A stretch of DNA of 64,000 bases, from assembly GCA_019637395.1 (NCBI GenBank), contig JAHBVR010000014.1:124001-188000 (forward strand), in the 5' to 3' direction. Both the position numbers and the translations under genes were made by a program. Below, one piece after another: positions 7,934-20,380 of the stretch. The notes below the pieces were generated by a model that was not told where the DNA came from, ran no database searches, and saw only the letters and a program-made list of their open reading frames with translations. How positions within the stretch are numbered: position 1 is the stretch's first letter; the number at the start of each line of letters is the position of its first letter. This DNA is from Vulcanimicrobiota bacterium. GTDB lineage: Bacteria; Vulcanimicrobiota; Xenobia; Xenobiales; JADMJV01.

Positions 7934-7973
7934 CGGCTCTGCGTGTGGCCAGGAGTTAACAGGTTGTTTACTT

Positions 7974-8005
7974 TTGATCTGTACTGATAAGGGATAAATA
8001 ATCCC
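7974..8005 (+). promoter_or_regulatory. Candidate promoter with inverted repeat upstream of 8050
   Basis: TTGATC at 7974-7979 is followed by an AT-rich block with GATAAA/TAAATA. That block is also the inverted repeat GGGATAAATAATCCC (7991-8005, arms GGGAT/ATCCC). The spacing for a sigma70 promoter is a little short (about 15 bp), so this could equally be an operator in the divergent intergenic region. Confidence 0.3.
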
Positions 8006-8049
8006 ATCGTTCTATTCTTGGCCTATCAACCGAATGGAGAACAAGGATA

Positions 8050-8715
8050 ATGGCGATTGGAACTGTAGGCACCGCATCTGTACAAAATGTAGGTCAGACC
8101 AATCGCCCGGCGGGCTCGGCGGCCAACTCCCCGGCCCGGTTCGCCAGTCAGGCAGCCGACCGTACTCTGGGCGCCAGCACCCACGGCGCTGTGCAGACCA
8201 GTGCCGGCGCCGCTCCCAAAGACGGCCAGGCGGTGCTTGATTTCGCCAAGAGCAAGCAGGGCCAGAAAGTGGGCTCCGGCGAGTGCTTCGACCTGGCCGA
8301 CCAGGCTCTCAAGAAGAACGGTTTCAAAACCGCCAGCGACTACGGGCCGGTCACCAAGGACGGCGACTACCAGTGGGGTAAGGAAGTTCCGCTGGGCGAA
8401 TCCAAGCCGGGTGACGTGCTTCAGTTTCGCGACTATGAGAACGAAACCACGACCAGGACCGAGAACGACAAGGGCTGGCAAGAGAAGACCGAAACCAGTT
8501 CTCGTCCGCACCACACCGCCGTGGTGGTGGCGAACGACGGCAAGGGAAATATTACCGTGCTTGAACAGAATGCCCCCAAGGGGAGCAAAGTGACTCAGCG
8601 TGTGCTGCACATGGGCAACGGCACCAACACCAGCGAGAAGAACGGAACCACCACCACCGAGACGCAGACCACCAACGGAACCGTTACCGCTTACCGGCCC
8701 GAGCCGAAGGAGTAA
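8050..8715 (+). CDS. NlpC/P60- or CHAP-like papain-fold protein
   Basis: 221 residues with no signal peptide and a Ser/Ala/Thr-rich N-terminus of about 55 residues. Residues of about 70-190 carry a papain-like triad arrangement: Cys in GSGECFDLADQALKKNGF, PGDVLQF, His in RPHHTAVVV, and a polar third residue in LEQNAPKG. This layout is typical of NlpC/P60 or CHAP amidases that cut peptide or amide bonds, often in cell walls. The C-terminal 35 residues are Thr/Asn-rich repeats. The AAGGA ribosome-binding site at 8043-8047 supports ATG 8050. The protein may reach its substrate by a non-Sec route. The substrate is not predictable. Confidence 0.65.
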   Translation: MAIGTVGTASVQNVGQTNRPAGSAANSPARFASQAADRTLGASTHGAVQTSAGAAPKDGQAVLDFAKSKQGQKVGSGECFDLADQALKKNGFKTASDYGPVTKDGDYQWGKEVPLGESKPGDVLQFRDYENETTTRTENDKGWQEKTETSSRPHHTAVVVANDGKGNITVLEQNAPKGSKVTQRVLHMGNGTNTSEKNGTTTTETQTTNGTVTAYRPEPKE

Positions 8716-8756
8716 TCCCGGCCCTTAGCGGGAGATGAGGAAGACTCGAACGCTCC

Positions 8757-8786
8757 TTGGGTCAAGAAAGCGTCGGATGTTACACT
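8757..8786 (+). promoter_or_regulatory. Candidate sigma70 promoter for the exported protein at 8824
   Basis: TTGGGT (8757-8762), an 18-bp spacer, then TACACT (8781-8786) give a reasonable match placed about 35 bp before the ATG. A GC hairpin (TCCCG/CGGGA) without a T-run lies just upstream, after the 8050 gene. Confidence 0.35.
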
Positions 8787-8823
8787 CCATGCGTTCGAAT
8801 CAATTTTGAAAGGTAGAGAGCAT

Positions 8824-9264
8824 ATGAGATCACGGCGAGGTCAACTTCTCTTATTCTTCCTGTCTATCGCTCTGATGACCGTTTTTCCCAGCGTCGGTGT
8901 CGCCCAGTCCACCGAGCCCGACAAGCCATCACCCATCACCGGCGGTCTGATTGAGGGCGAAGTGAGCGGAAATCTGAACGACGACAAGACTTACTACTAC
9001 GTTTTTTACGTTCAGAAGGGGCCGTTCGATCTGACCGTCGATATCGACCCTATCAAGGAGACCGGCGGCGGACTGATCCGATGGTTCTACCTGGATTCGA
9101 AGTATAACCGGATCAAATGGGATCAGGTGTCGGCTCAAGGAAACCCTGAAAGGAGAGTGACTTCTTCAACGGCACTGTCAAAACAGAAGGTGATTCTGAA
9201 AGTGGTGGTGGGGGGCAACTTCCGCTACAAGATGAAGTTTTCCGGCAGCGGGTTTGTGCATTAG
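8824..9264 (+). CDS. Exported protein with a PPC-like beta domain
   Basis: 146 residues. The ATG at 8824 follows AGGTAGAGAG. The signal peptide is MRSRRGQLLLFFLSIALM..., with cleavage expected near GVAQ|S. The mature part reads like a small beta-sandwich of the bacterial pre-peptidase C-terminal (PPC) type: IEGEVSGNLNDDKTYYYVFY, then FDLTVDIDPIKETGGGLIRW, and a final strand FRYKMKFSGSG. PPC domains are secreted appendages of proteases, but here the domain stands alone. Homology is suggested by pattern only. Confidence 0.6.
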   Translation: MRSRRGQLLLFFLSIALMTVFPSVGVAQSTEPDKPSPITGGLIEGEVSGNLNDDKTYYYVFYVQKGPFDLTVDIDPIKETGGGLIRWFYLDSKYNRIKWDQVSAQGNPERRVTSSTALSKQKVILKVVVGGNFRYKMKFSGSGFVH

Positions 9265-9287
9265 TACACCTTTAATCGGATTCCGGA

Positions 9288-9604
9288 ATGGACTGGTTGG
9301 TGGTTTCAGGCGGCCCGGCGCGACCTTGAAGCAGGTTTGCTTGTTCAGGGTAATTGGCGTCGTTCCACTGTCATCAAGCCGCAGAGAAGAGCTTGAAGGC
9401 CCTGTTTGTCGAGGGGGGGTCACCGAACGGACTCACTCTGGGTTTGAGTTGCTTTCGGGGCTCCGTCAGGAGGGGCTAACGATCAGCGATGATCTTTTTC
9501 ACCAGGTGTGTAAGATTGATCGCAGCTACATCGACTCGCGCTACCCCAGCGGAGTAGCCGGGGCACAGTCCGTGATGGCATTCGTCCAGTCCAACCTGAC
9601 TTAG
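9288..9604 (+). pseudogene. HEPN-domain toxin pseudogene (two frameshifts)
   Basis: Three consecutive reading frames together spell a complete HEPN protein of the type paired with MNT nucleotidyltransferases. Frame one gives WWFQAARRDLEAGLLVQGNW (the N-terminal 'W...ArrDLeaa' helix). Frame two gives ASFHCHQAAEKSLKALFVEG (the hallmark 'F..qQAaEkalKAL' helix). Frame three gives RTHSGFELLSGLRQEG and then KIDRSYIDSRYPSG (the C-terminal 'L.r.YI.tRYP' motif), ending at TAG 9604. At least two small indels, near 9360 and 9425, are needed, so no functional protein is made. The nucleotidyltransferase remnant follows directly. Confidence 0.65.
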
Positions 9605-9886
9605 AAGTCTATTCCAGCCGCTTGCGCTCCAGGCTCAATCTGAGGTCGGTCATCGTCTTTGGTTCGCGGGCTCGCGGGGACCATTGGGAGAATAGCGATA
9701 TCAACTTACTGGCAATTTCCGATGATTTCTTGGAGTCGTGGCCCGGAATTCCCGCACTTGAACCTTTCGGGGTCACGCCCGCCGAATGCGAGGGACCTGG
9801 TTGGCTTCTACTGTGGGATGCCCTCTATCAGGCTAGAGAGAAGCTATTTGTGCGTATCCACTCGGTGGATTTGACGCCTGCAGCCG
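9601..9886 (+). pseudogene. MNT nucleotidyltransferase remnant after the HEPN pseudogene
   Basis: The frame from about 9604 reads RLRSRLNLRSVIVFGSRARG, then NSDINLLAISDDFLESW and PFGVTPAECEG, matching the MNT family order (GSRARG...SDxD, then a 'TPEEFE' segment). The second catalytic Asp of the DxD pair is Asn (SDIN), the middle is shortened, and the frame runs into the next gene without its own stop. The best start is TTG 9622. This is the expected antitoxin partner of the HEPN gene, also decayed. Confidence 0.6.
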
Positions 9887-10451
9887 GTGGATGGCGAGAA
9901 AAGCGGGAGTATCCAGGAGGCCATGGAGGCTGCGAGCAGAGCGAAGTTTCGCGAACAGTCGCTGGCCAGCTTCCTGGCGCGCGGACCCGTCTCGCCTCTA
10001 TCCTTTCTATAAGACCGGAGGTGGTGCAGGGAATCTGCGGTGGCATTCTGCCGAACTGGTGGAAACCGTTGCACCCCGAGATCCTCAAGGTCTTCGACGC
10101 CGCCCGCGGCCCCCGGGACGCCACCAGGGACCTGGAGAACTTCTTCCTGGCTGCGGAGCTCGTGCCGACCGTCTCTATCCTCCCGTCTACGGTTACGAGA
10201 GCCTGCTTCATGCAGCCGTCTCCCGCGGTTACCCCGACCTGGTCAAGCGACTGCTGGCGTGCGGGTTGGACGCCAATCTGCGCGATAGCCTGGGCAAGCC
10301 TCCCCTCTACTACATCGAGGAGCAGCCGACCGTCCACCGCCGCACCGGCCGGCAAGTGGCACAGGCTCTTTTAGATGCTCCCGAAGTCTTGCGGAGGCAC
10401 CGTATGAATGATACGGCGGCCTGGCTCAGCTCTTCTCAGCACCCGAGGTAA
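9887..10451 (+). pseudogene. Ankyrin-repeat protein, frameshifted
   Basis: A GTG at 9887 opens a natural-looking N-terminus (VDGEKSGSIQEAMEAASRAK, ending ...GPVSPLSFL and a stop). Sense continues in the next frame (YKTGGGAGNLRWHSAELVE), then another (EILKVFDAARGPRDATRDLE), then back to a frame with clear ankyrin repeats (YGYESLLHAAVSRGYPDLVK, then RLLACGLDANLRDSLGKPPL). Several indels have broken it. Its 3' end overlaps the convergent DUF1801 gene by 16 bp. A small intact ankyrin protein occurs at 46965. Confidence 0.55.
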
Positions 10452-10807
10452 ACGCCCTTGCGCGCCAACTCCACCGCCCGGTCCACAAATTCGGCCCCCC
10501 CGGATCCCTCCAGAACGGTCGACTTGCCAAAGCGAATGCACCCCTTGCCGTGGCTGGCCACCTTCAAAATGACTTTGTGGGGGTCCACCTTGGCAATCTC
10601 GCCCACATAGAGACTCACGTAGTTCTTCTGGGCATTCAACTGGAAAATCACCTCGTCCCCCAACCGATAAGCCAGCATCTTATAGCGAATGCACTCCTCT
10701 AGCCCGTGCCCCAGCAGCAACTCCCGCAACTCCAATAACCGGGAACGCCGCCAATCGTCCTCCAATAAAGCCAGATAGGCCTCGGGGGTTTCCGCATTGT
10801 ATTGCAT
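10436..10807 (-). CDS. DUF1801 (YdhG-like) domain protein
   Basis: 123 residues from ATG 10807. The sequence follows DUF1801: an N-terminal 'PEAYLALL..LREL' segment, then EECIRYKMLAYRLGDEVIFQ, NYVSLYVGEI, and GKGCIRFGKSTVL. The fold is small alpha+beta and members are cytosolic with no established reaction. A longer start would overlap the gene upstream. It begins 4 bp after the stop of the small protein at 10812-11042, so it probably ends the same operon. Confidence 0.75.
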   Translation of the reverse strand: MQYNAETPEAYLALLEDDWRRSRLLELRELLLGHGLEECIRYKMLAYRLGDEVIFQLNAQKNYVSLYVGEIAKVDPHKVILKVASHGKGCIRFGKSTVLEGSGGAEFVDRAVELARKGVYLGC

Positions 10808-10811
10808 AGCC

Positions 10812-11042
10812 CTACTTTCGCCTTGCACCGGCGGAATACCGGCCATTTACTCGAGGTCCAGCAAGTAGTTCAGGGCATCCCTTAGGCCCGGGCGCAAGTT
10901 GCGCCATTTCCAGGCACTGGCTCAGCCAATCGCGAGGAAACTCTTTGAGAACTTGCCACACCGCCTTTTCGAGGGCTGTCACAGTAGCTACATCCGGGTC
11001 GCTGAGCAGACTCTTGAGCGTCTCGGGGTCTGGATTTTTCAA
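10812..11042 (-). CDS. Small hypothetical protein in a tight operon
   Basis: 76 residues, predicted helical: KNPDPETLKSLLSDPDVATV, TALEKAVWQVLKEFPRDWL, then a basic tail. It starts at a TTG that overlaps the preceding stop as TTGA, an arrangement seen at several real junctions in this window (31334, for example). I do not recognise it. Overlapping starts on both sides argue for a genuine operon member, but it could also be the tail of a decayed larger gene. Confidence 0.4.
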   Translation of the reverse strand: MKNPDPETLKSLLSDPDVATVTALEKAVWQVLKEFPRDWLSQCLEMAQLAPGPKGCPELLAGPRVNGRYSAGARRK

Positions 11043-11137
11043 GACGCCAGGGAAACGGGAAGGACCACAACTCGGCCCCCATCAAGTTGGCAGAGAGCGG
11101 TGCCGATGGGACGCACGAAACGGTAGCCACGGGTCAT
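11039..11137 (-). CDS. Very small ORF (32 codons) between overlapping neighbours
   Basis: ATG 11137 overlaps the upstream stop as ATGA, and its TGA (11041-11039) overlaps the next TTG start. The product begins MTRGYRFVRPIGTALCQLDG and ends VVVLPVSLAS, which looks like a beta hairpin with a hydrophobic strand. It has no known family. The double overlap suggests translational coupling, or alternatively that the three small ORFs are fragments of one ancestral gene. Confidence 0.35.
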   Translation of the reverse strand: MTRGYRFVRPIGTALCQLDGGRVVVLPVSLAS

Positions 11138-11364
11138 GACTTCATCCAGGCGAGCAGTAAATCTCGTGCCGAGCAGGCCCAGCCGGGGTCGACTTCGGGA
11201 TAGAGCTTCAGGTCGGCGGCGATCGCCTGATCGCTCCAGGCTCGAAGGCGTTCCACCAGCAGGACTTCCTCCAAGGAAAGGAGCTCTTTGCGACCGACCT
11301 TTTCCATTTGAGGATGCTGTCGCAGCGTGGCATAGACCAAAAGTTGAGCCAGATCCCTACGCAC
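11134..11364 (-). CDS. Small hypothetical helical protein
   Basis: 76 residues from GTG 11364: RRDLAQLLVYATLRQHPQ, then LLSLEEVLLVERLRAWSDQA, ending LLLAWMKS. It is predicted all-helical and soluble. It is the first gene of a leftward chain (11364 to 10436) with ATGA, TTGA and 4-bp junctions. It diverges from the MNT remnant at 11459. No family is recognised, and the surrounding decay makes the call uncertain. Confidence 0.35.
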   Translation of the reverse strand: MRRDLAQLLVYATLRQHPQMEKVGRKELLSLEEVLLVERLRAWSDQAIAADLKLYPEVDPGWACSARDLLLAWMKS

Positions 11365-11458
11365 TCCGGCGGTTTCTATCCCGGCTGAATTCCACCCCGG
11401 TAGGAGGCTTGCTGGTTCTGCCGGCGCTTATCGACTCATCTCAAAGACTCCTCCGCCG

Positions 11459-11686
11459 GTGAGAGGAATCCCATGGTGTGAACGATATGTCCAGGCTGTC
11501 TATCTCTTCGGCTCGCATGCCCGCGGACGTCAACGACCAGATTCGGACCTCGATCTGGCCGTGCTTCTGCCGTCCCAAATATGCGACGGGGAAGTTTGGA
11601 AAAAACGCCTCTTATTGGGCGCTCGCGCTGCCGAAAGCCTGGAGAGAGAGAACGCTCGGCCGGGGGAGGGAAGCCTCTCCCGTTAG
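11459..11686 (+). pseudogene. Truncated MNT nucleotidyltransferase
   Basis: 75 residues from GTG 11459 with an intact catalytic signature, YVQAVYLFGSHARGRQRPDS followed by DLDLAVLLP, so GS...DxD is present. The family normally runs 100-140 residues. Here it ends soon after GARAAESLERENARPGEG, where an intact member would enter its last strand and helix. It overlaps the end of the convergent EamA gene by 4 bp. No HEPN partner is visible on the same strand. It is most likely a 3'-truncated antitoxin, the third such relic in the first 12 kb. Confidence 0.6.
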
Positions 11687-12561
11687 CCTTCGGAGTACCC
11701 CACCAGGGGGATGTAGGAACGGAAGACGCGGGCGTTCAGGCTGGTTTTGACTGTCAGCAGGATGACCCCGGCCAGGATCAGCAAGATGGCCGGGCCGGCC
11801 GTGGACGGTAGAGCCTCACCGACCAGGGCTGAGAGAGCCACCGCCACCACCGGGTTGACGTAGGTATGGGTGGCTACCAGGCTGGGGCTGGAATGGCGCA
11901 ACAGCCAGGTGTAGGCGGTCATGCCGATGAGCGAGCCGGCCACCACCAGGTAGAGCCAGGCGGCGATGGCGCTGAAGGTGATGGGGCCGGTTAAGGTTTC
12001 CTGGATGAACAGGCTGAGGGCGGTGAGAACACCGCCGGCGGCCAGCATGGTCATGCCGGAGAACTGGATGCTGCTCTCGGGTTTGTCCAGTTGGGGAGAG
12101 AGCAGGGTGGCGGCGGTCCAGCTGAGTGAAGCGAAGAGGATGGCCAGGGTGCCGATGGTGAGGCTGCCCGGGTCTTGCATCAAACTGAACAGGCCCAGGC
12201 TGGCCAGCAGGATGCCGGCCACGGTGGCGTGGCCGGGGTAGCCCCGGCGGTAGAAGCTCCAGAGGGCGATCCACATGGGGGTGGTGGCGTTGACCAGCGC
12301 GGCCTGGCCGGAGCTGACCGTCTGTTCGGCCCAGGCCACCAGGCCGGTGCCGGTCGAGAGCAGCAGGGTGCCCATGATCAGGGCCGAGCGCCACTGCTTG
12401 AGAGTGGCCGGTTTTCTGACGTAGAGAAGCAGGAGCAGGCCGGCCACGGCAAAGCGCGCGCCGCTCATGGCGAGCGGAGGAAAAGCTTCCAGGACATAGC
12501 GCACGGCCAAGAAGGTCGAACCCCAGATGAGGTAGATAGAGGCGAGAGCTAGCGTTTGCAT
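11683..12561 (-). CDS. EamA-family (DMT) exporter
   Basis: 292 residues with ten hydrophobic helices in two EamA halves (first about 5-130: ASIYLIWGSTFLAVRYVLEA, then a Trp/Gln segment AWAEQTVSSGQAAL; second about 140-280, ending ALSALVGEALPSTAGPAILL). Members export amino acids and other small metabolites across the inner membrane. It diverges from a MocR-type regulator 99 bp away. In known pairs, a MocR/PLP regulator senses an amino-acid-like ligand and controls the adjacent exporter, so an amino acid or amine substrate is a reasonable inference. Confidence 0.9.
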   Translation of the reverse strand: MQTLALASIYLIWGSTFLAVRYVLEAFPPLAMSGARFAVAGLLLLLYVRKPATLKQWRSALIMGTLLLSTGTGLVAWAEQTVSSGQAALVNATTPMWIALWSFYRRGYPGHATVAGILLASLGLFSLMQDPGSLTIGTLAILFASLSWTAATLLSPQLDKPESSIQFSGMTMLAAGGVLTALSLFIQETLTGPITFSAIAAWLYLVVAGSLIGMTAYTWLLRHSSPSLVATHTYVNPVVAVALSALVGEALPSTAGPAILLILAGVILLTVKTSLNARVFRSYIPLVGYSEG

Positions 12562-12660
12562 GTGTTCCAGGATAGGCTCTGAAGGTGTTAGGGAACAGAT
12601 TCAGAAAATGGAGTCTGTAAGCATAACAGTTTGAAGTTGAGAGAACTGATCCATACGGTG

Positions 12661-14106
12661 ATGACCAAAATTGTACCAGGGGAGGCGCGTCAGCCCCCCA
12701 CTACTACTGGACTGCATCGCTATGAGCAGGTGGCCTCTCATCTGCGCCATCTCATCGAAAGCGGCACCTATGCGGCACTGGATAAGTTGCCTTCGGTGCG
12801 CTCGCTGAGCGGACAGTTGGGGGTGAGCATTACCACCGTCCTGGAAGCCTACCGGGTGCTGGAAGATCAGGGGTTGGTGGAGGCGCGGCCGCAGTCTGGC
12901 TATTACGTGTCGGCTGTGATGGCGCCTCTGGCTCGGGTGGATTCGGATCTGACGGTGGAAGACCCGGTGGACGTGGGCATGGGCGAGTTCTTGATGCGTT
13001 ATTTGAGAGATTTTCAGAGACGTGATCTGGTACAGTTCGGCTGTGCCTGTCCCAATCCGGAACAGTTGCCCAGTGCCCGGCTGGCCCGCTGTCTGGCCAA
13101 GGTTTCTCGTGATTTGGGTCCGGCCGGCAACCTGTATGATATTCCGCCCGGCTGCGAGGCGCTCCGGGTGCAGATTGCCCGGCGCTCCCTGGTCAGCCCC
13201 GAGGAGGTGATGCTCACGCTGGGGGCTCAGGAAGCCATTACCCTGTGTCTATTGGCCACCTGCCAGGCGGGTGACACGGTGGCGGTGGAGACGCCCACCT
13301 TTTATGGGCACCTTCAGGCTATCGAGATGCTGGGCTTGAAGGCGGTGGAGATTCCTTCCGATCCGGTCCACGGGGTCAGTCTGGCTTCTTTGCGGCAATG
13401 CCTGGAGGATGTGCCGGTCAAGGCCATGCTGTTGTGCACGAATTATTCCAACCCCACCGGCGCTACTTTGAGCGACGAGGACAAGCACGAGTTGCTGGAA
13501 ATCCTGGGGGGGCGCGATATTCCCCTGATCGAGGACGATATTTTCGGCGATTTGAGTCATTCGACGCAGCGGCCGCATACGGCCCGGGCTTTTGATCGGC
13601 GCGATCTGGTGTTGCTGTGCTCGTCTTTCTCCAAGACGCTGGCGCCCGGTTACCGGGTGGGCTGGGTTCTGGCCGGGCCGCGCTATATGGGCCGGTTGCA
13701 TCAGTTGAAGTTGTTTTCCAATCTGGGCTCGCCCATGTTACCGGCGCTGGCCATTTCGGAGTTCTTGTCGACCGGCGCTTTCGAGCATCACGTGCGCCAG
13801 TGCCGCCGCCACTATGCCCGCCAGGTGTGCCAGATGGCCGAAGCGGTGGAGCGCAGCTTTCCGGCGGGCACGCGGGTGACCCGGCCGCGCGGCGGGTTTG
13901 TGCTCTGGGTCGAGCTGCCCCAGGGGTATGATACGCGTCTGTTTTATCCCCGGGCGGTCGAGCTGGGCCTGACCTTCGGGCCGGGGCCGATTTTTTCGGC
14001 GCGCGGGCGTTTCCGCAACTGTCTGCGCCTGTGCGCGCCGTACTGGAGCCCGGCCAGCGAGGCGATTTTGGGGAAGTTCGGGGAGCTTTTGCAGAAGCGC
14101 CGCTAA
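12661..14106 (+). CDS. MocR-type regulator: GntR wHTH plus class I aminotransferase domain
   Basis: 481 residues. Residues of about 17-85 are a GntR winged helix (HRYEQVASHLRHLIESGTY, then KLPSVRSLSGQLGVSITTVL and QSGYYV). Residues of about 125-475 form a fold-type I PLP domain with NYSNPTGATL, the Asp in IEDDIFGDL, the PLP lysine in SSFSKTLAPGYRVGW, and a conserved Arg in FRNCLRLC. Regulators of this type use PLP-bound ligand to control a neighbouring metabolic or transport gene, here the divergent EamA gene. The first 13 codons are encoded by a dispersed GC-rich repeat (see repeat entry). TTG 12631 is an alternative start. Confidence 0.88.
   Translation: MTKIVPGEARQPPTTTGLHRYEQVASHLRHLIESGTYAALDKLPSVRSLSGQLGVSITTVLEAYRVLEDQGLVEARPQSGYYVSAVMAPLARVDSDLTVEDPVDVGMGEFLMRYLRDFQRRDLVQFGCACPNPEQLPSARLARCLAKVSRDLGPAGNLYDIPPGCEALRVQIARRSLVSPEEVMLTLGAQEAITLCLLATCQAGDTVAVETPTFYGHLQAIEMLGLKAVEIPSDPVHGVSLASLRQCLEDVPVKAMLLCTNYSNPTGATLSDEDKHELLEILGGRDIPLIEDDIFGDLSHSTQRPHTARAFDRRDLVLLCSSFSKTLAPGYRVGWVLAGPRYMGRLHQLKLFSNLGSPMLPALAISEFLSTGAFEHHVRQCRRHYARQVCQMAEAVERSFPAGTRVTRPRGGFVLWVELPQGYDTRLFYPRAVELGLTFGPGPIFSARGRFRNCLRLCAPYWSPASEAILGKFGELLQKRR
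12672..12700. repeat. Dispersed repeat copy inside the 5' end of the MocR gene
   Basis: TGTACCAGGGGAGGCGCGTC followed by AGCCCCCC matches a second copy at 34204-34232 with one single-base gap and one C/T difference over 28 bases. The copy here provides codons 5-14 of the MocR protein (VPGEARQPP), which lie outside the conserved GntR domain. Confidence 0.6.
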
Positions 14107-14113
14107 GCTGGTT

Positions 14114-14731
14114 TCAGGGGAATCCGGTCACCGTGCCGTTGGCTACCGTGCGTGAGCCCTCGCTGATGATAAAGATCTGGCCCAATTCCAGGGCAACCGG
14201 CTCCTGGAGTCGGAACTTCAGGCGGGCCTCGCCGCCCGGTTGCACACTGTCCGCCAGATCGACCAGCTCGCCTGAAACGCTGGCGGTCCGGAACCGGCAA
14301 TACGGGCGATAGTCCGCGGTGACGGCTTTGCTTTTGCCTCCCTGTTCCTTGGCCAGCCAGGCGGTATTGGCGGTAAACACGCTGTGAGCCTGGATGCTGT
14401 CCGGCCGGGCCAGCACTTGTCCGCGGACGATCTGGTCGCGGGTCAGGCCCTTGAGCAAAATGCCGTAGGTTTTACCGGCCTCGGCCTGGTCGAGCTGCTT
14501 GCGGAAGCTCTCGATGGCCACGACTTCCGTCCTGGCGTCTTTGCTCAGCCCCACCAGGTCCACCGCCTGCCCTTTCTTGATGCTGCCCCGCTCCACTCGG
14601 CCGGTTACTACGGTGCCGCGGCCGGTGATCGAGAACACATCTTCCACCGCCATCAGAAATGGTGGTTCGCCGGCCCAGCCGGTTAGCATAAGGAACTGGG
14701 CAACGATAAGGAAAGCAGGCCTTTTGTGCAT
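14114..14731 (-). CDS. Exported protein consisting of EF-Tu domains II and III without the GTPase domain
   Basis: 205 residues. Residues 1-21 look like a signal peptide ([21 protein letters not shown]). From residue 24 the chain follows the C-terminal two thirds of elongation factor Tu: [71 protein letters not shown] (domain II), then [26 protein letters not shown] and [15 protein letters not shown] (domain III). The whole G domain (P-loop, DxxG, NKxD) is absent, so it cannot hydrolyse GTP or take part in decoding in the normal way. It may be a binding protein derived from EF-Tu. It lies 7 bp from the convergent MocR gene. Domain identity is strong; export and function are inference. Confidence 0.85.
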
Positions 14732-14903
14732 GGCCGGCTCTTCGCGGCCGACTGGGCGCTGCCCCTGTTTCTAAGGCTTCGTCCACGGTGGTTCTGGACG
14801 ACTGCCCCAGGGCGTGTCCCGCACGGGGCGTAGGCGCGACTTGCCGGCCAGGCGGTAAGTCTTACCGCGCAGTGGCAAGATCTGTTGGCCTATCGAAGTA
14901 GGG

Positions 14904-15839
14904 CTAAACGTCTGCATTCTTCCCCTGAAGATGGATGGCCCTCAACCCCTCGCGCAAAGTCGTGACGCGAAAATCTGGAAATCGCTGCTTGAATTTGTCG
15001 GAAACAAACAGGTTGTCCGCCTCATAGCGCGGCAGCAGTTCGGCTGCGTCTCGAACCTGCTTGCTGAAGAAACTGGCCAGCCAAAGTTGCCATCTCTTGA
15101 CGATGCGATATTTTGGCGTGGTTCCGAAGATCTCGGCCGCCAGGTGGACCAACTGGCGGTAGGTCAGGCGCCTGTCGTCGCAAGGCAGATGCCAGGTCTC
15201 ACCATAGGCACCGGGGGTGTTGCCAAGCAGTGCCAGGGCCCGGCTGGCATCGGGTGTATAGATCAGCGAGCGCAGAGTATCATCTCGTAAAAATATTCTG
15301 GCGGCTTGTCCTTGTCGCAGAGGTTCGATAATGGTCGAGTTGGTGATGCTTTGAGTCTTCCCCGGACCATAAAATTCTGGAGCTCGTCCGATCACAGCCT
15401 GCACTCGGCCGGCTTTCATGGCAGTCACCAGGTGGCTGGCAACTCTGGCGCGGACTTTCCCTTTCTCACCATAAGGAAGAAAAGGAGTCGACTCCGTCTG
15501 GGGCTCGGCGGTTTGCGGATACATATAGGTGTTGTCGAAGAAGACCAGCCTGGCACCTTGGGCCGCGCAGGCTTCGATGACGTTGTTCATCATCACCGGC
15601 CATTGAGCAACCCACAATGCCGTATCCATGGGAAGACCCGCCGTAAGATAAACGATTTCCGATCCCTTGACCGCTTCCATGGTTTGCGTGGCGTCCAGGA
15701 GATCAGCGCTCATGATCTGGTCCGTTTCATTCACCTTTTGTGGACGCCGGCTTACTACGCGGATCTCGGCCCCAAAGTTCCGGTTCAACTCTACAGCCAG
15801 CTCGTGCCCGATTTGCCCGGCACCCAGTATCGTCTGCAA
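14904..15839 (-). CDS. NAD(P)-dependent epimerase/dehydratase-family (SDR) protein
   Basis: 311 residues. The Rossmann start is ILGAGQIGHELAVELNRNFG (GxGxxG), with the acidic/basic loop VVSRRPQKV suggesting NADPH. The mid-region FFDNTYMYPQ takes the place of the extended-SDR 'S..vYG' Ser/Tyr, and the catalytic Lys is not in a standard YxxxK. This places it with atypical extended SDRs. It lies 9 bp after the alpha/beta hydrolase and in the same direction, so both should be driven by the MerR-type promoter at 16991-17021. The substrate is unknown; a role in detoxifying a carbonyl or lactone compound is inferred from the operon. Confidence 0.8.
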   Translation of the reverse strand: MQTILGAGQIGHELAVELNRNFGAEIRVVSRRPQKVNETDQIMSADLLDATQTMEAVKGSEIVYLTAGLPMDTALWVAQWPVMMNNVIEACAAQGARLVFFDNTYMYPQTAEPQTESTPFLPYGEKGKVRARVASHLVTAMKAGRVQAVIGRAPEFYGPGKTQSITNSTIIEPLRQGQAARIFLRDDTLRSLIYTPDASRALALLGNTPGAYGETWHLPCDDRRLTYRQLVHLAAEIFGTTPKYRIVKRWQLWLASFFSKQVRDAAELLPRYEADNLFVSDKFKQRFPDFRVTTLREGLRAIHLQGKNADV

Positions 15840-15848
15840 AATTTCCCC

Positions 15849-16688
15849 TCAGATCCGTTTAAAAAAGTCGAGCAAGTCCGCGTTGATAATGGCGGCATTG
15901 ATCGTGTGCATCCCGTGAGAGAAGCCTTCATAGATGTTCAGGGTGCTATTTTGCAGCAGCTTGTCTTGCAGAAGCGCGGCGTTCTTGTAGGGCACGACCT
16001 GGTCGTCGTCCCCTTGCAAGACCAGGGTTGGAAGGTTGATGGCTTTCAAGTCCTCCGTTTGGTCGGTTTCCGAGAACGCCTGGATCCCATCGTAGTGTGC
16101 TTTGGCGCTGCCCATCATACCCTGACGCCACCAATTCTGGATCACCCCCTGGGAGGCGGGGACGTTCGTCCGATTGAAACCGTAAAATGGCCCGGAAGGC
16201 ACGTCCAGGTAAAACTGAGAGCGGTTATTGGACAGCTGGGCTCGGAAGCCATCGAATACCTCAATAGGCGTGCCGCCCGGATTACTCTCCGTTTTTACCA
16301 TCAATGGCGGGACAGCGCTGACCAGCACCGCTCCGGCCACGCGACCCTCGGGTTGACCAAAGCGCGCCACGTATCTCGCGACCTCGCCGCCGCCGGTAGA
16401 ATGGCCGATATGAACGGCGTTCTTCAGGTCGAGATACTCAGCGACAGCCGCTGCGTCAGCAGCATAGTGGTCCATGTCGTGGCCCTCGTTCACCTGTGTC
16501 GAGCGTCCGTGACCGCGACGGTCGTGAGCGATGACCCGGAAGCCTTGAGCAAGGAAGAAAAGCATCTGCGCGTCCCAATCATCAGAACTCAGTGGCCAAC
16601 CGTGATGGAAAAACAGTGGCCGGGCCTCTCGCGGCCCCCAATCCTTGTAATAAATATTGACTCCATCCGGGGTGGTTACAAAGGTCAT
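15849..16688 (-). CDS. Alpha/beta hydrolase of the non-haem chloroperoxidase/arylesterase group
   Basis: 279 residues, cytosolic. It opens MTFVTTPDGVNIYYKDWG, followed by the oxyanion region FFHHGWPLSSDDWD, nucleophile Ser in GHSTGGGEVARY (about residue 99), Asp near LQGDDDQVVP and His in EGFSHGMHT. The FHHGWP...GHSTGGGE pattern is that of cofactor-free haloperoxidases/esterases, which hydrolyse esters or lactones and can show perhydrolase activity. An AAGGAG ribosome-binding site lies upstream of ATG 16688. Together with the SDR it forms the operon below the MerR promoter, with a leader of about 300 nt. Confidence 0.88.
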   Translation of the reverse strand: MTFVTTPDGVNIYYKDWGPREARPLFFHHGWPLSSDDWDAQMLFFLAQGFRVIAHDRRGHGRSTQVNEGHDMDHYAADAAAVAEYLDLKNAVHIGHSTGGGEVARYVARFGQPEGRVAGAVLVSAVPPLMVKTESNPGGTPIEVFDGFRAQLSNNRSQFYLDVPSGPFYGFNRTNVPASQGVIQNWWRQGMMGSAKAHYDGIQAFSETDQTEDLKAINLPTLVLQGDDDQVVPYKNAALLQDKLLQNSTLNIYEGFSHGMHTINAAIINADLLDFFKRI

Positions 16689-16990
16689 CGTTTCGTCTCC
16701 TTAGCAAAATTCTCCGTGAGTACGGACATAGTCCAGCCTACCCAACAGGTCGCGGGGCAGCCATCGTTGGGCGAAAGCCGGAGTGTTCGACCAGCTGTTG
16801 CTTCCCATACGCGACTGACACGGCACTTCCCGAACATTGGGCAGTGACGGTGCGCCATTGGGGTAGCTGGTAGCCCGGGACACTCGTCATCGGTAACGCA
16901 ACATATGCGCGAAGAGACTGCGGCGAGGCACGCTCTCTTCGACCTCGGTATCCTGATTGTCCAGAGAAAATCCGCCCTTTTTCTTGCGCA
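16689..16990. other. Long leader between the MerR-type promoter and the hydrolase gene
   Basis: About 300 bp with no ORF I can support. Short leftward frames exist, but they lack a ribosome-binding site or overlap the promoter. The sequence is GC-rich with several small hairpins and may be a degraded gene or an untranslated leader. Confidence 0.4.
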
Positions 16991-17021
16991 AGCTTAACAT
17001 TCAAGCTAGCTTTAAGGTCAA
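16991..17021 (-). promoter_or_regulatory. MerR-type promoter (19-bp spacer) for hydrolase-SDR operon
   Basis: On the minus strand TTGACC (17021-17016), exactly 19 bp, then TAAGCT (16996-16991). The spacer carries a dyad centred on AGCTAGCT (TTAAAGCTAGCTTGAA). Over-long 19-20-bp spacers with a central dyad are the mark of promoters that need MerR-family activators. The merR gene starts 24 bp away in the opposite direction. Confidence 0.7.
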
Positions 17022-17044
17022 GCTAATCCGGCGAGGAGTTCATC

Positions 17045-17509
17045 ATGAGAATTGGGGAGCTGGCCAGACTTAGTGGCCTTGCGCCGTCGAAAATCCGCTT
17101 TTACGAGAGTGTCGGAGTGCTCCGAGAGGTGGAACGCCACCCTAACGGCTACCGCGTTTACCCGCCGGAGGCTCTGGTCACTCTGGAACTGGTTGTCATG
17201 GCGCAGCGGTCAGGTTTCAGCCTGGATGAAATCCGCAAACTTCTACCCTCCGAGCCGGGCCATTGGCAACACGACGCGCTAATGACTGTGCTAGAGGAGA
17301 AAGTGGCCCATATCGAAGCGCTGCAAGCGCGCCTGGCCTGGAGCAAGTCTCACTTAAGGCAACTGATGAATACACTGAAGGCGCGACCTGACAACATCGA
17401 CTGCATCGCCAATCAGAAACGAGTCCTCTCGCAGTTCCTCGGCGCGGATGGAGCTGACCAAGTCAATCACAACGCTCTGACTGAGCAGAGAGCAACGCCG
17501 CCACTTTGA
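17045..17509 (+). CDS. MerR-family transcriptional regulator
   Basis: 154 residues. The N-terminal wHTH is MRIGELARLSGLAPSKIRFY, then ESVGVLREVERHPNGYRVYP, with the second wing ALVTLELVVMAQRSGFSLDE. A dimerisation coiled coil runs from about 80 to 115, with a short effector region containing a single Cys in DNIDCIANQ. It resembles the MerR members that respond to electrophiles or redox stress. The GCGAGGAG ribosome-binding site is at 17031-17038. Two promoters with 19-bp spacers flank it (16991-17021 and 18211-18241), so it likely activates both neighbouring units. The 3' end overlaps the convergent PfpI-like gene by 47 bp. Confidence 0.9.
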   Translation: MRIGELARLSGLAPSKIRFYESVGVLREVERHPNGYRVYPPEALVTLELVVMAQRSGFSLDEIRKLLPSEPGHWQHDALMTVLEEKVAHIEALQARLAWSKSHLRQLMNTLKARPDNIDCIANQKRVLSQFLGADGADQVNHNALTEQRATPPL

Positions 17510-18170
17510 TTGCGGCCGCCCTGGCGGAAAACGGATTCTGACCGGTAACCAACCGTCCGGCGGTCACGACGTAAGGTAAGAAAGGCAACAAAGCTTTCCG
17601 ATAAATCGCTCCACGAGCCTTCATTTCCGCCTCGGCGTTATAGGGCATGGCTTTGGCAACACCGGCAAGGACTTCCTCGGTCCAGGAAAAGCCTGTGATG
17701 GGCTTGCCCGCAACCAGCAATGTTCCATCCGATAGGCGCGTGTTCAACAAGCCGCAATACCCGTGGCAAACGGAAGATACGATGCCCCCTTGCTCCCAAA
17801 CCGAGCGGACGAGCGCCTGTAAACCATCACTCTCCGGGAAATCCCACATCACTCCATGGCCGCCCGTGAAATAGATAGCGTCTACACGCGTGGCCACAAT
17901 GTCGTCGGGTCGAGCCGTAGAGGACAACAGAGCCATTCGGTCCGGATCGCCAAGCCAGGCCCTGGCTGACGAATCCAACAAGGGCCACTTGAGCGCGCGC
18001 GGCTCCAACGGTGATACGCCGCCCTTCGGACTCACCAGATGTTGCTCATACCTTTTCTCGGCAAACACATCCCAGGCGTGGGTCAGCTCGGATAACCAAA
18101 GTCCGGTCGGGTGCGCAGGATCGCTATAGTGGGCGGTGTTAGTGACGACGTGAAGAATCCGCTTACTCAT
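17463..18170 (-). CDS. DJ-1/PfpI-family protein (Hsp31/glyoxalase III-like)
   Basis: 235 residues. A class I glutamine-amidotransferase-like fold with the nucleophile elbow SSVCHGYCGL (Cys near 133, followed by His as in Hsp31-type proteins) and the glycine loop YFTGGHGVMWDFPES. Members of this branch act as glutathione-independent glyoxalases or deglycases on methylglyoxal and related reactive carbonyls. Its upstream region holds a promoter with a 19-bp spacer. Paired with a MerR activator and an SDR/hydrolase operon, this suggests a reactive-electrophile response. Confidence 0.85.
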   Translation of the reverse strand: MSKRILHVVTNTAHYSDPAHPTGLWLSELTHAWDVFAEKRYEQHLVSPKGGVSPLEPRALKWPLLDSSARAWLGDPDRMALLSSTARPDDIVATRVDAIYFTGGHGVMWDFPESDGLQALVRSVWEQGGIVSSVCHGYCGLLNTRLSDGTLLVAGKPITGFSWTEEVLAGVAKAMPYNAEAEMKARGAIYRKALLPFLPYVVTAGRLVTGQNPFSARAAAIKVAALLSAQSERCD

Positions 18171-18210
18171 CAGTTCTTAAGTCCCGCTTCGAGATGTATT
18201 CCCAGCCAGG

Positions 18211-18241
18211 ATTCTAACCTTCGACCAGGGTTTAGGGTCAA
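18211..18241 (-). promoter_or_regulatory. Second MerR-type promoter (19-bp spacer), for the PfpI-like gene
   Basis: On the minus strand TTGACC (18241-18236), 19 bp, TAGAAT (18216-18211). The spacer starts with CTAAA, like the TTAAA of the other promoter, and ends in AAGGT. The predicted transcript starts about 30-35 nt before the gene's ATG at 18170. It shares its -35 box exactly with the promoter at 16991-17021. Confidence 0.7.
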
Positions 18242-18353
18242 CTTGACCTGACGACTGTCTCAAAAGCCGCACACTCTAGAGCGGTGTCGTTCGGTTGGAC
18301 AGTTCGGAGCGAGGCAATGCGAGATTTTTCAAGGATTGAAGAATTCCGGTAAG

Positions 18354-18488
18354 CCGGCACAGTATGCTGAAGTCGTCTGGGACCAGGCGACCACAACCTG
18401 GCCTCGTTGTCATCGCAATGCCTTTGAGTTCTGGGGCGGAGTGACGGCGATTTTCCGACCGTCGCATGGCAACATTTATCCTCTCAAA
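18354..18488 (+). mobile_element. IS21-type transposase (IstA) remnant
   Basis: A short open stretch reads YAEVVWDQATTTWPRCHRNA followed by FEFWGGVTAIFRPSHGN. This fits the IS21 IstA catalytic region '..a..sqt..dfi.ahv.AfefFGGVP.ivvpDN'. Only about 45 codons remain, the catalytic Asp is lost (SHGN for PDN), and no terminal repeats or istB are visible. It is an old relic. The rest of 18242-18654 holds nothing else I can support. Confidence 0.5.
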
Positions 18489-18654
18489 ACGGAAGGGATT
18501 AAGTTGCCTACCGGCTCAGAAGCGCCGCTAAGACGCCCCCGGATAAATGGCGGATAAAGTTAACATGTTTTCGTCTGGATTTAACAGCCCTCTGGTAATC
18601 TTTGAGCAACAAAGATAGATACACAAGTGAGTTATTCAGAGGAGATCCAAGGAA

Positions 18655-19540: not shown

Positions 19541-20380
19541 GTGCACTGGTCCGGAGGCCGCCTCGCTCGACTTGCGTGCCGCGGTGAACGCACCGGTCCG
19601 GGCCGCTCCGCTCGACTTGCGTGTACCCGTCCTGGCAATGCGTGCCCCGGTGAGCGCACCGGCCGGGAGGCCGCCCCGCTCGATCTGCGTGCATGGGTCC
19701 TGGCAATGCGTGCCCCGGTGAGCGCACCGGCCGGGAGGCCGCCCCACTCGACTTGCGTGCACGGGTCCTGGCAATGCGTGCCCGGGTGAGCGCACCGGTC
19801 CGGAGGCCGTCCGCTCGACTTGCGTTCGCGGGTCCCGGCAATGCGTGCCCCGGTGAGCGCACCGGCCGGGGGCTACCCCGCTCGAGCTGCGTGCACGGGT
19901 CCCGGCAATGCGTGCCGCGGTGAACGCACCGGTCCGGGCCGCTCCGCTCGACCTGCGTGCACCCGTCCTGGCAATGCGTGCCCCGGTGAACGCACCGGTC
20001 CGGGCCGCTCCGCTCGACCTGCGTGCACCCGTCCTGGCAATGCGTGCACCGGTGAACGCACCGGTCCGGAGGCCGCTCCGCTCGATCTGCGTGCACGGGT
20101 CCCGGCAATGCGTGCCCCGGTGAGCGCACCGGTCCGGAGGCCGCTCCGCTCGACCTGCGTGCACGGGTCCTGGCAATGCGTGCCCCGGTGAGCGCACCGG
20201 CCGGGGGCTACCCCGCTCGACCTGCGTGCACGGGTCCTGGCAATGCTTGCCCCGGTGAGCGCACCGGCTGGGGGCTACCCCGCTCGACCTGCGTGCACGG
20301 GTCCTGGCAATGCGTGCACCGGTGAACGCACCGGCCGGGGGGCTACCCCGCTCGATCTGCGTGCACCGGTCCCGGCATTT
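19541..20380. repeat. Tandem array of about 12 copies of a 66-68 bp hairpin-forming unit
   Basis: The anchor GGCAATGC (or a close variant) recurs at 19634, 19702, 19770, 19837, 19904, 19970, 20036, 20104, 20172, 20239 and 20306, with a last partial copy at 20374, giving spacings of 66-68 bp. Each unit has a perfect stem-loop of the form CCGGTG-AGCG-CACCGG, a variable CCGG-rich block (GGTCCGGGCC, GGCCGGGAGGCC or GGCCGGGGGC) and GCTCGACCTGCGTGCACGGG. The period is not a multiple of three, so the long open frames through it are by-products of GC content. It fills the space between convergent pfkB and coaX. Confidence 0.9.

Follow-up and report, generated by a model that had tools for sequence, protein, structure and literature searches.

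We examined a 64,000-nucleotide stretch of contig JAHBVR010000014.1 (hereafter the window), which encodes on its minus strand a protein of 205 aa related to EF-Tu. The gene, which we call D23, occupies positions 14114..14731, with its ATG start codon at 14731, and combines a leader with EF-Tu domains II and III but without a G domain. The leader, a probable Sec signal peptide, corresponds to codons 1-20 (14672..14731) and is followed by the residues GEPPF. A highly conserved EF-Tu domain II (Pfam PF03144) is encoded at 14408..14617 and a remodelled domain III (Pfam PF03143) at 14126..14398, all on the minus strand. D23 is a small accessory gene, found in a few members of Eremiobacterota, an uncultured phylum, in which a probable export signal immediately precedes both non-enzymatic barrels of EF-Tu; a portion of the translation apparatus has thereby apparently become a protein with an extracytoplasmic role.

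D23 is carried by a 4.4-kb insert (14108..18532). A perfect 16-bp direct repeat, CAGAAGCGCCGCTAAG, marks the boundaries of this insert, with the left copy at 14092..14107 and the right copy at 18517..18532, both on the plus strand. The left copy lies at the 3′ end of a gene for a GntR/MocR-type regulator with an aminotransferase domain (12631..14106, plus strand), which adjoins the insert and is common to the five genomes of the genus; the repeat is a duplicate of this 3′ end. The junction is free of the insert in three of the four other genomes (G001, G002 and G003), where the regulator is directly followed by sequence matching the window from 18517 onwards. The insert is probably also absent from G004, in which the flanks align more weakly and are separated by about 1.1 kb of unrelated-position sequence not seen in the window. 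Besides D23, the insert carries genes for an NAD-dependent epimerase-like protein (14904..15839, minus strand), for which the four remaining genomes of the genus gave no match at E 1e-60, an alpha/beta hydrolase (15849..16688, minus strand), a MerR-family regulator (17045..17509, plus strand), and a DJ-1/PfpI-family protein (17463..18170, minus strand). No integrase or transposase was found among the genes scanned.

We also observed a second segment of ~3.75 kb (window 7938-11698) that is absent from the same place in G001, G002, and G003. It encodes a small signal-bearing protein (8806-9264) with no Pfam match and a DUF1801 protein, together with two ORFs that have nucleotidyltransferase-like GSRARG and GSHARG motifs and may be toxin-antitoxin remnants. 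At 19573-20377, the window contains a tandem array in which a 68-bp unit occurs 12 times (89% matches), and both strands of this region have long open frames. Because the relatives do not align across this array, it looks species-specific.

Domain architecture, coding evidence and relation to tuf

Searches with domain models bore out the expectation that the protein consists of EF-Tu domains II and III only. The Pfam model GTP_EFTU_D2 matches residues 39-108 at 60.7 bits (cut-off 30.3) and GTP_EFTU_D3 matches residues 112-202 at 59.9 bits (cut-off 27), both roughly twice their cut-offs, and no G-domain family of Pfam gives a match. Homology to EF-Tu starts at residue 22, whose counterpart in E. 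coli EF-Tu is at about position 206, and the NCBIfam EF-Tu models likewise align D23 from residue 22 (model position ~208) to its end. The protein scores 191-201 bits with these models, against full-length cut-offs of 449-522 bits; for the EF-Tu equivalog TIGR00485, all three fall short of the cut-off (191-200 vs 522 bits). The open frame measures 218 codons from stop to stop, and there is thus no G domain in frame upstream.

Full-length orthologues are present in two species of the same genus (L004:1423-2037 and L005:1423-2040); they show 65-66% identity, begin at the same codon, and conserve the leader of 20 residues. The substitutions that separate the genes lie mostly at third codon positions. 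Nei-Gojobori estimates for the three species gave dN of 0.20-0.25, dS of 1.0-1.2, and dN/dS of about 0.2, ratios that are approximate since dS is near saturation. The first 27 codons gave dN of 0.11-0.24 with dS >1, and the third-position excess within the leader favours the first ATG over M15 or M27 as the translation start. Given the full-length copies with a shared start, the third-position excess, and the low dN/dS, D23 is a real coding sequence, and purifying selection acts on all of it, the leader too. Between the same pairs of species, dN is 0.04-0.06 in the neighbouring core regulator and about 0.02 in tuf; compared with these two core genes, D23 therefore evolves several-fold faster while still being constrained.

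The full-length tuf of the source genome (G000) is located on a different contig (G000:C35). D23 shares 45% identity with domains II-III of the EF-Tu that it encodes, about 50% with EF-Tus from other genera and phyla, and 45-52% with EF-Tus overall. Only 5 of 28 unusual residues of the genus's tuf are matched by the D23 proteins. Together with the 45% identity, this rules out a recent tuf fragment.

Distribution, mobility and origin

Two D23 loci, both in Candidatus Eremiobacterota MAGs (JAFKGI010000017 and JALHOV010000222), were recovered when bacterial and archaeal genomes were scanned, and these are the same-genus copies G001:C3 and G002:C222. Similarly, a phylum-wide search of 149 Eremiobacterota genomes detected D23 in G000, G001, and G002 only, and the short frames checked in this search turned out to stem from contig ends or from an N gap interrupting a normal tuf. 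A search with a domain III profile yielded no additional full-length gene restricted to domains II and III; it also returned several domain III pieces of 20-141 codons that were not individually inspected. Within the genus, D23 is absent from G004, which is 97% complete and in which tuf was found. It is also absent from G003, but this says little, as that assembly lacks tuf as well.

The location of D23 is different in the other two species, and no common neighbourhood is apparent, the neighbours differing at all three loci. In G002 the gene lies directly 3′ of a TetR gene, and no D23 lies alongside the syntenic MBOAT-TetR pair of G001. G002 also contains a decayed, 24-residue relic of D23 on a different contig (L102:669-740). 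We observed that this relic is 2.7 kb from a gene for a CAP-family secreted protein (L102:3414-4199). The absence of the insert in relatives, the different locations, and the relic indicate that D23 is accessory and changes place. What is new here is thus an accessory gene of patchy distribution, which in this genome is carried by an insert.

The three D23 proteins form one clade in the tree (support 100/100), on a very long stem of ~2.5 changes per site. AU tests rejected neither a grouping with the genus's own tuf (p 0.35) nor one with the tufs of the phylum (p 0.41), and D23 may stem from an old duplication or from transfer. The original prediction of a dedicated protein separate from tuf is upheld by the 45% identity to the genome's own EF-Tu and by the single clade common to relatives. 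High nucleotide identity to tuf, which would have pointed to a fragment, was not found, and D23 has both relatives and a signal-like leader. The further description as a conserved paralogue goes too far, as D23 is accessory and is found in three species of one genus.

A phage or plasmid origin was considered and rejected: the named matches in the phage and plasmid collections are EF-Tu, SelB, and EF-1alpha, alongside some unannotated matches and one partial Lactococcus match that was left uninspected. One viral match was discarded as a probable chimeric assembly: on this IMG/VR contig, L058 (1494-2564), ~150 residues of an apparent phage protein, capsid-like by eye, run abruptly into the last G helix and domains II-III of an EF-Tu. 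Many large IMG/VR contigs (L070-L088, 60-618 kb) carry full-length EF-Tu genes that are about 52-60% identical to the tuf of this genome.

The leader and the two barrels

The leader has the same plan in all three species, namely M-K-R followed by a hydrophobic core, with K3, R4, the core, and TGWAGE conserved. The mean Kyte-Doolittle hydropathy of its 12-residue core is 2.25 here and 2.1-2.4 across the three members. As controls from these genomes, eight cytosolic proteins gave values of -0.2 to 1.4 and three exported or membrane proteins gave 1.8-2.6, in agreement with the earlier suggestion that the hydrophobic N-terminus resembles a signal peptide. On inspection, D23 displays the positive n-region, the hydrophobic core, and the small residues before the cleavage site that characterize Sec signals, the latter being G18 (-3) and A20 (-1) in a conserved G18-W-A20. 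The textbook signal-peptidase site is A-X-A, from which the predicted site of D23 departs.

The CAP family is a classic secreted family, and a CAP-family protein of G002 (Pfam CAP, 64 bits) has a leader ending in SLPGWAAPPALP, very close to the end of the D23 leader. The similar ends raise a CAP-family-like gene as a possible source, from which the D23 leader may have been borrowed.

The D23 leader is about as long as the last G-domain helix of EF-Tu plus the linker, and the structure aligner superposes it there. However, at most 2 of 23 residues are identical to the EF-Tu segment that it replaces, so that a relic of the last G helix is not supported by the residues themselves, even if the superposition keeps it conceivable. 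An AlphaFold2 model built on 31 sequences reached an overall pLDDT of 92 (a three-sequence version gave 35). Its pLDDT is 54-58 over residues 1-20, which may simply reflect coverage by only three aligned sequences, and 94 over residues 21-30. Taken together, the hydropathy, the CAP-like leader end, the near lack of identity to the EF-Tu segment, and the pLDDT jump at residue 21 favour a cleaved Sec signal peptide, cut near A20|G21.

Superposition of the modelled barrels on domains II-III of EF-Tu gave 1.1 Å with 8rd8 (181 residues) and 1.6 Å with 5i4q (183 residues). Domain II has a mean identity of 59% to EF-Tus, and 32 of its 42 tuf-invariant positions are kept in all three D23 proteins (5 are changed in all three). 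In domain III the mean identity is 38%, with 20 of 53 tuf-invariant positions kept and 23 changed in all three. For individual contacts we used lists of aminoacyl-pocket, T-stem, and G-domain positions in E. coli EF-Tu, which we take to be those of the ternary-complex structures and resistance genetics. The aminoacyl-end pocket positions E215, D216, F218, T228, E259, R262, K263, and R288 are kept in all three proteins, and N273 is kept in two. Among the T-stem contacts, none of the three proteins retains H319 or Q329, and two have lost E378; R318 and T338 are each kept in two, and G379 is kept in all three. The G-domain-facing positions Q329, R373, A375, R377, and E378 are mostly changed. The comparison of tRNA contacts in domain III that had been proposed at the outset thus points to a domain that is remodelled and that, judged by its residues, has lost the contacts to the tRNA T-stem and to the G domain.

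Possible roles and comparison with known systems

We lean towards the interpretation that D23 is a Sec-exported two-barrel binding protein, encoded by an accessory gene, with domain II as its binding face. The protein would be exported through Sec and its leader, residues 1-20, removed at about A20|G21, which would leave a rigid two-barrel protein starting where domain II starts. Without a G domain, it would neither bind GTP nor take part in elongation, and it would most likely serve as a binding module in the periplasm or at the cell surface. Domain II, which keeps the conserved face of EF-Tu including the pocket for the 3′ aminoacyl end, would probably do the binding. Domain III could act as a remodelled support, with its tRNA and G-domain contact surfaces freed from constraint. 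The gene would be gained and lost on small insertions. Counting against a binding protein are the small number of D23 sequences (three) and a neighbourhood with no functional partner.

It is also possible, though unlikely, that D23 is a cytosolic translation regulator, the leader of which is no export signal and which competes with EF-Tu for EF-Ts, aminoacyl ends, or ribosomes. Such a role would agree with the retention of all eight aminoacyl-end pocket positions in domain II, but not with the lost T-stem contacts H319, Q329, and E378 or with the changed interface residues R373 and R377. The conservation of the leader as a hydrophobic, signal-like segment also argues against it.

Slightly more doubtful is an exported decoy, that is, an island-borne periplasmic mimic of EF-Tu in which a signal peptide has been put on domains II-III and only the target face of domain II has been kept as bait. 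Its targets would be contact-dependent toxins that must attach to domains 2/3 of EF-Tu, or antibiotics that bind EF-Tu, en route into the cell, and binding them outside would spare the cell's own EF-Tu. This possibility could account for the retention of the domain II positions alongside the loss of tRNA and G-domain contacts in domain III. The CdiA-CT toxin of E. coli NC101 makes contact with EF-Tu at domain 2, and its immunity protein does so at domains 2 and 3 (PMC9086364); 5i4q, a structure of just these two domains, appears among the structural matches of D23. By analogy, the patchy, island-borne occurrence and the elevated dN relative to the core regulator and tuf form a pattern that resembles that of defence genes. 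However, no toxin, immunity, or resistance gene was recognised beside D23 in any of the three species, and the known toxins first cross the periplasm and engage EF-Tu in the cytosol.

We are no less sceptical of a signal-anchored inner-membrane protein with an uncleaved leader and barrels facing the periplasm. Against the textbook rule, the cleavage site is a weak one, as such an anchor would have it, but the hydrophobic core is only about 12 residues long. By the usual rule, a stable membrane helix has a 19-residue mean of 1.6, and the D23 leader is low at 1.1-1.2. Lastly, a decaying, functionless tuf fragment is highly improbable: the relic in G002 demonstrates that loss of D23 does occur, but the gene is intact in three species with dN/dS of about 0.2, a third-position excess, and 45% identity to its own tuf, and the three copies in separate genomes make an assembly error unlikely.

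EF-Tu is reported at many bacterial surfaces despite having no secretion signal, and whether this is adaptive or a by-product is debated. If D23 is both selected and signal-bearing, as the binding-protein interpretation holds, it would be clear evidence that the EF-Tu barrels alone can have a selected extracytoplasmic role. It also offers a natural two-barrel construct for asking what these barrels bind without GTP and tRNA. A search of the open-access literature with a limited set of terms found no description of a stand-alone, signal-bearing protein of EF-Tu domains II-III.

D23 is like EF-Tu in having the same two-barrel fold in the same order, with the pocket positions kept. It is unlike EF-Tu in having no G domain, in a leader that differs from the segment replaced, and in the 23 of 53 invariant domain III positions that are changed. 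The nearest known phenomenon is surface moonlighting by ordinary EF-Tu, as in Staphylococcus aureus and Mycoplasma (PMC5593925), since D23 is likewise derived from EF-Tu and thought to act outside the cytoplasm. In M. pneumoniae, the fibronectin-binding regions of EF-Tu are at the end of domain I, the start of domain II, and in domain III (PMC5593925). What moonlights in those bacteria is EF-Tu in its usual full-length form, which has no secretion signal and undergoes processing (PMC5593925), whereas D23 is a separate gene with no G domain and a leader of its own. D23 also differs from Ski7 and the SelB-like paralogues, which in the portions of the literature consulted retain a G domain; what it has in common with these and other EF-Tu-family paralogues of altered function is the reuse of translation-factor barrels.
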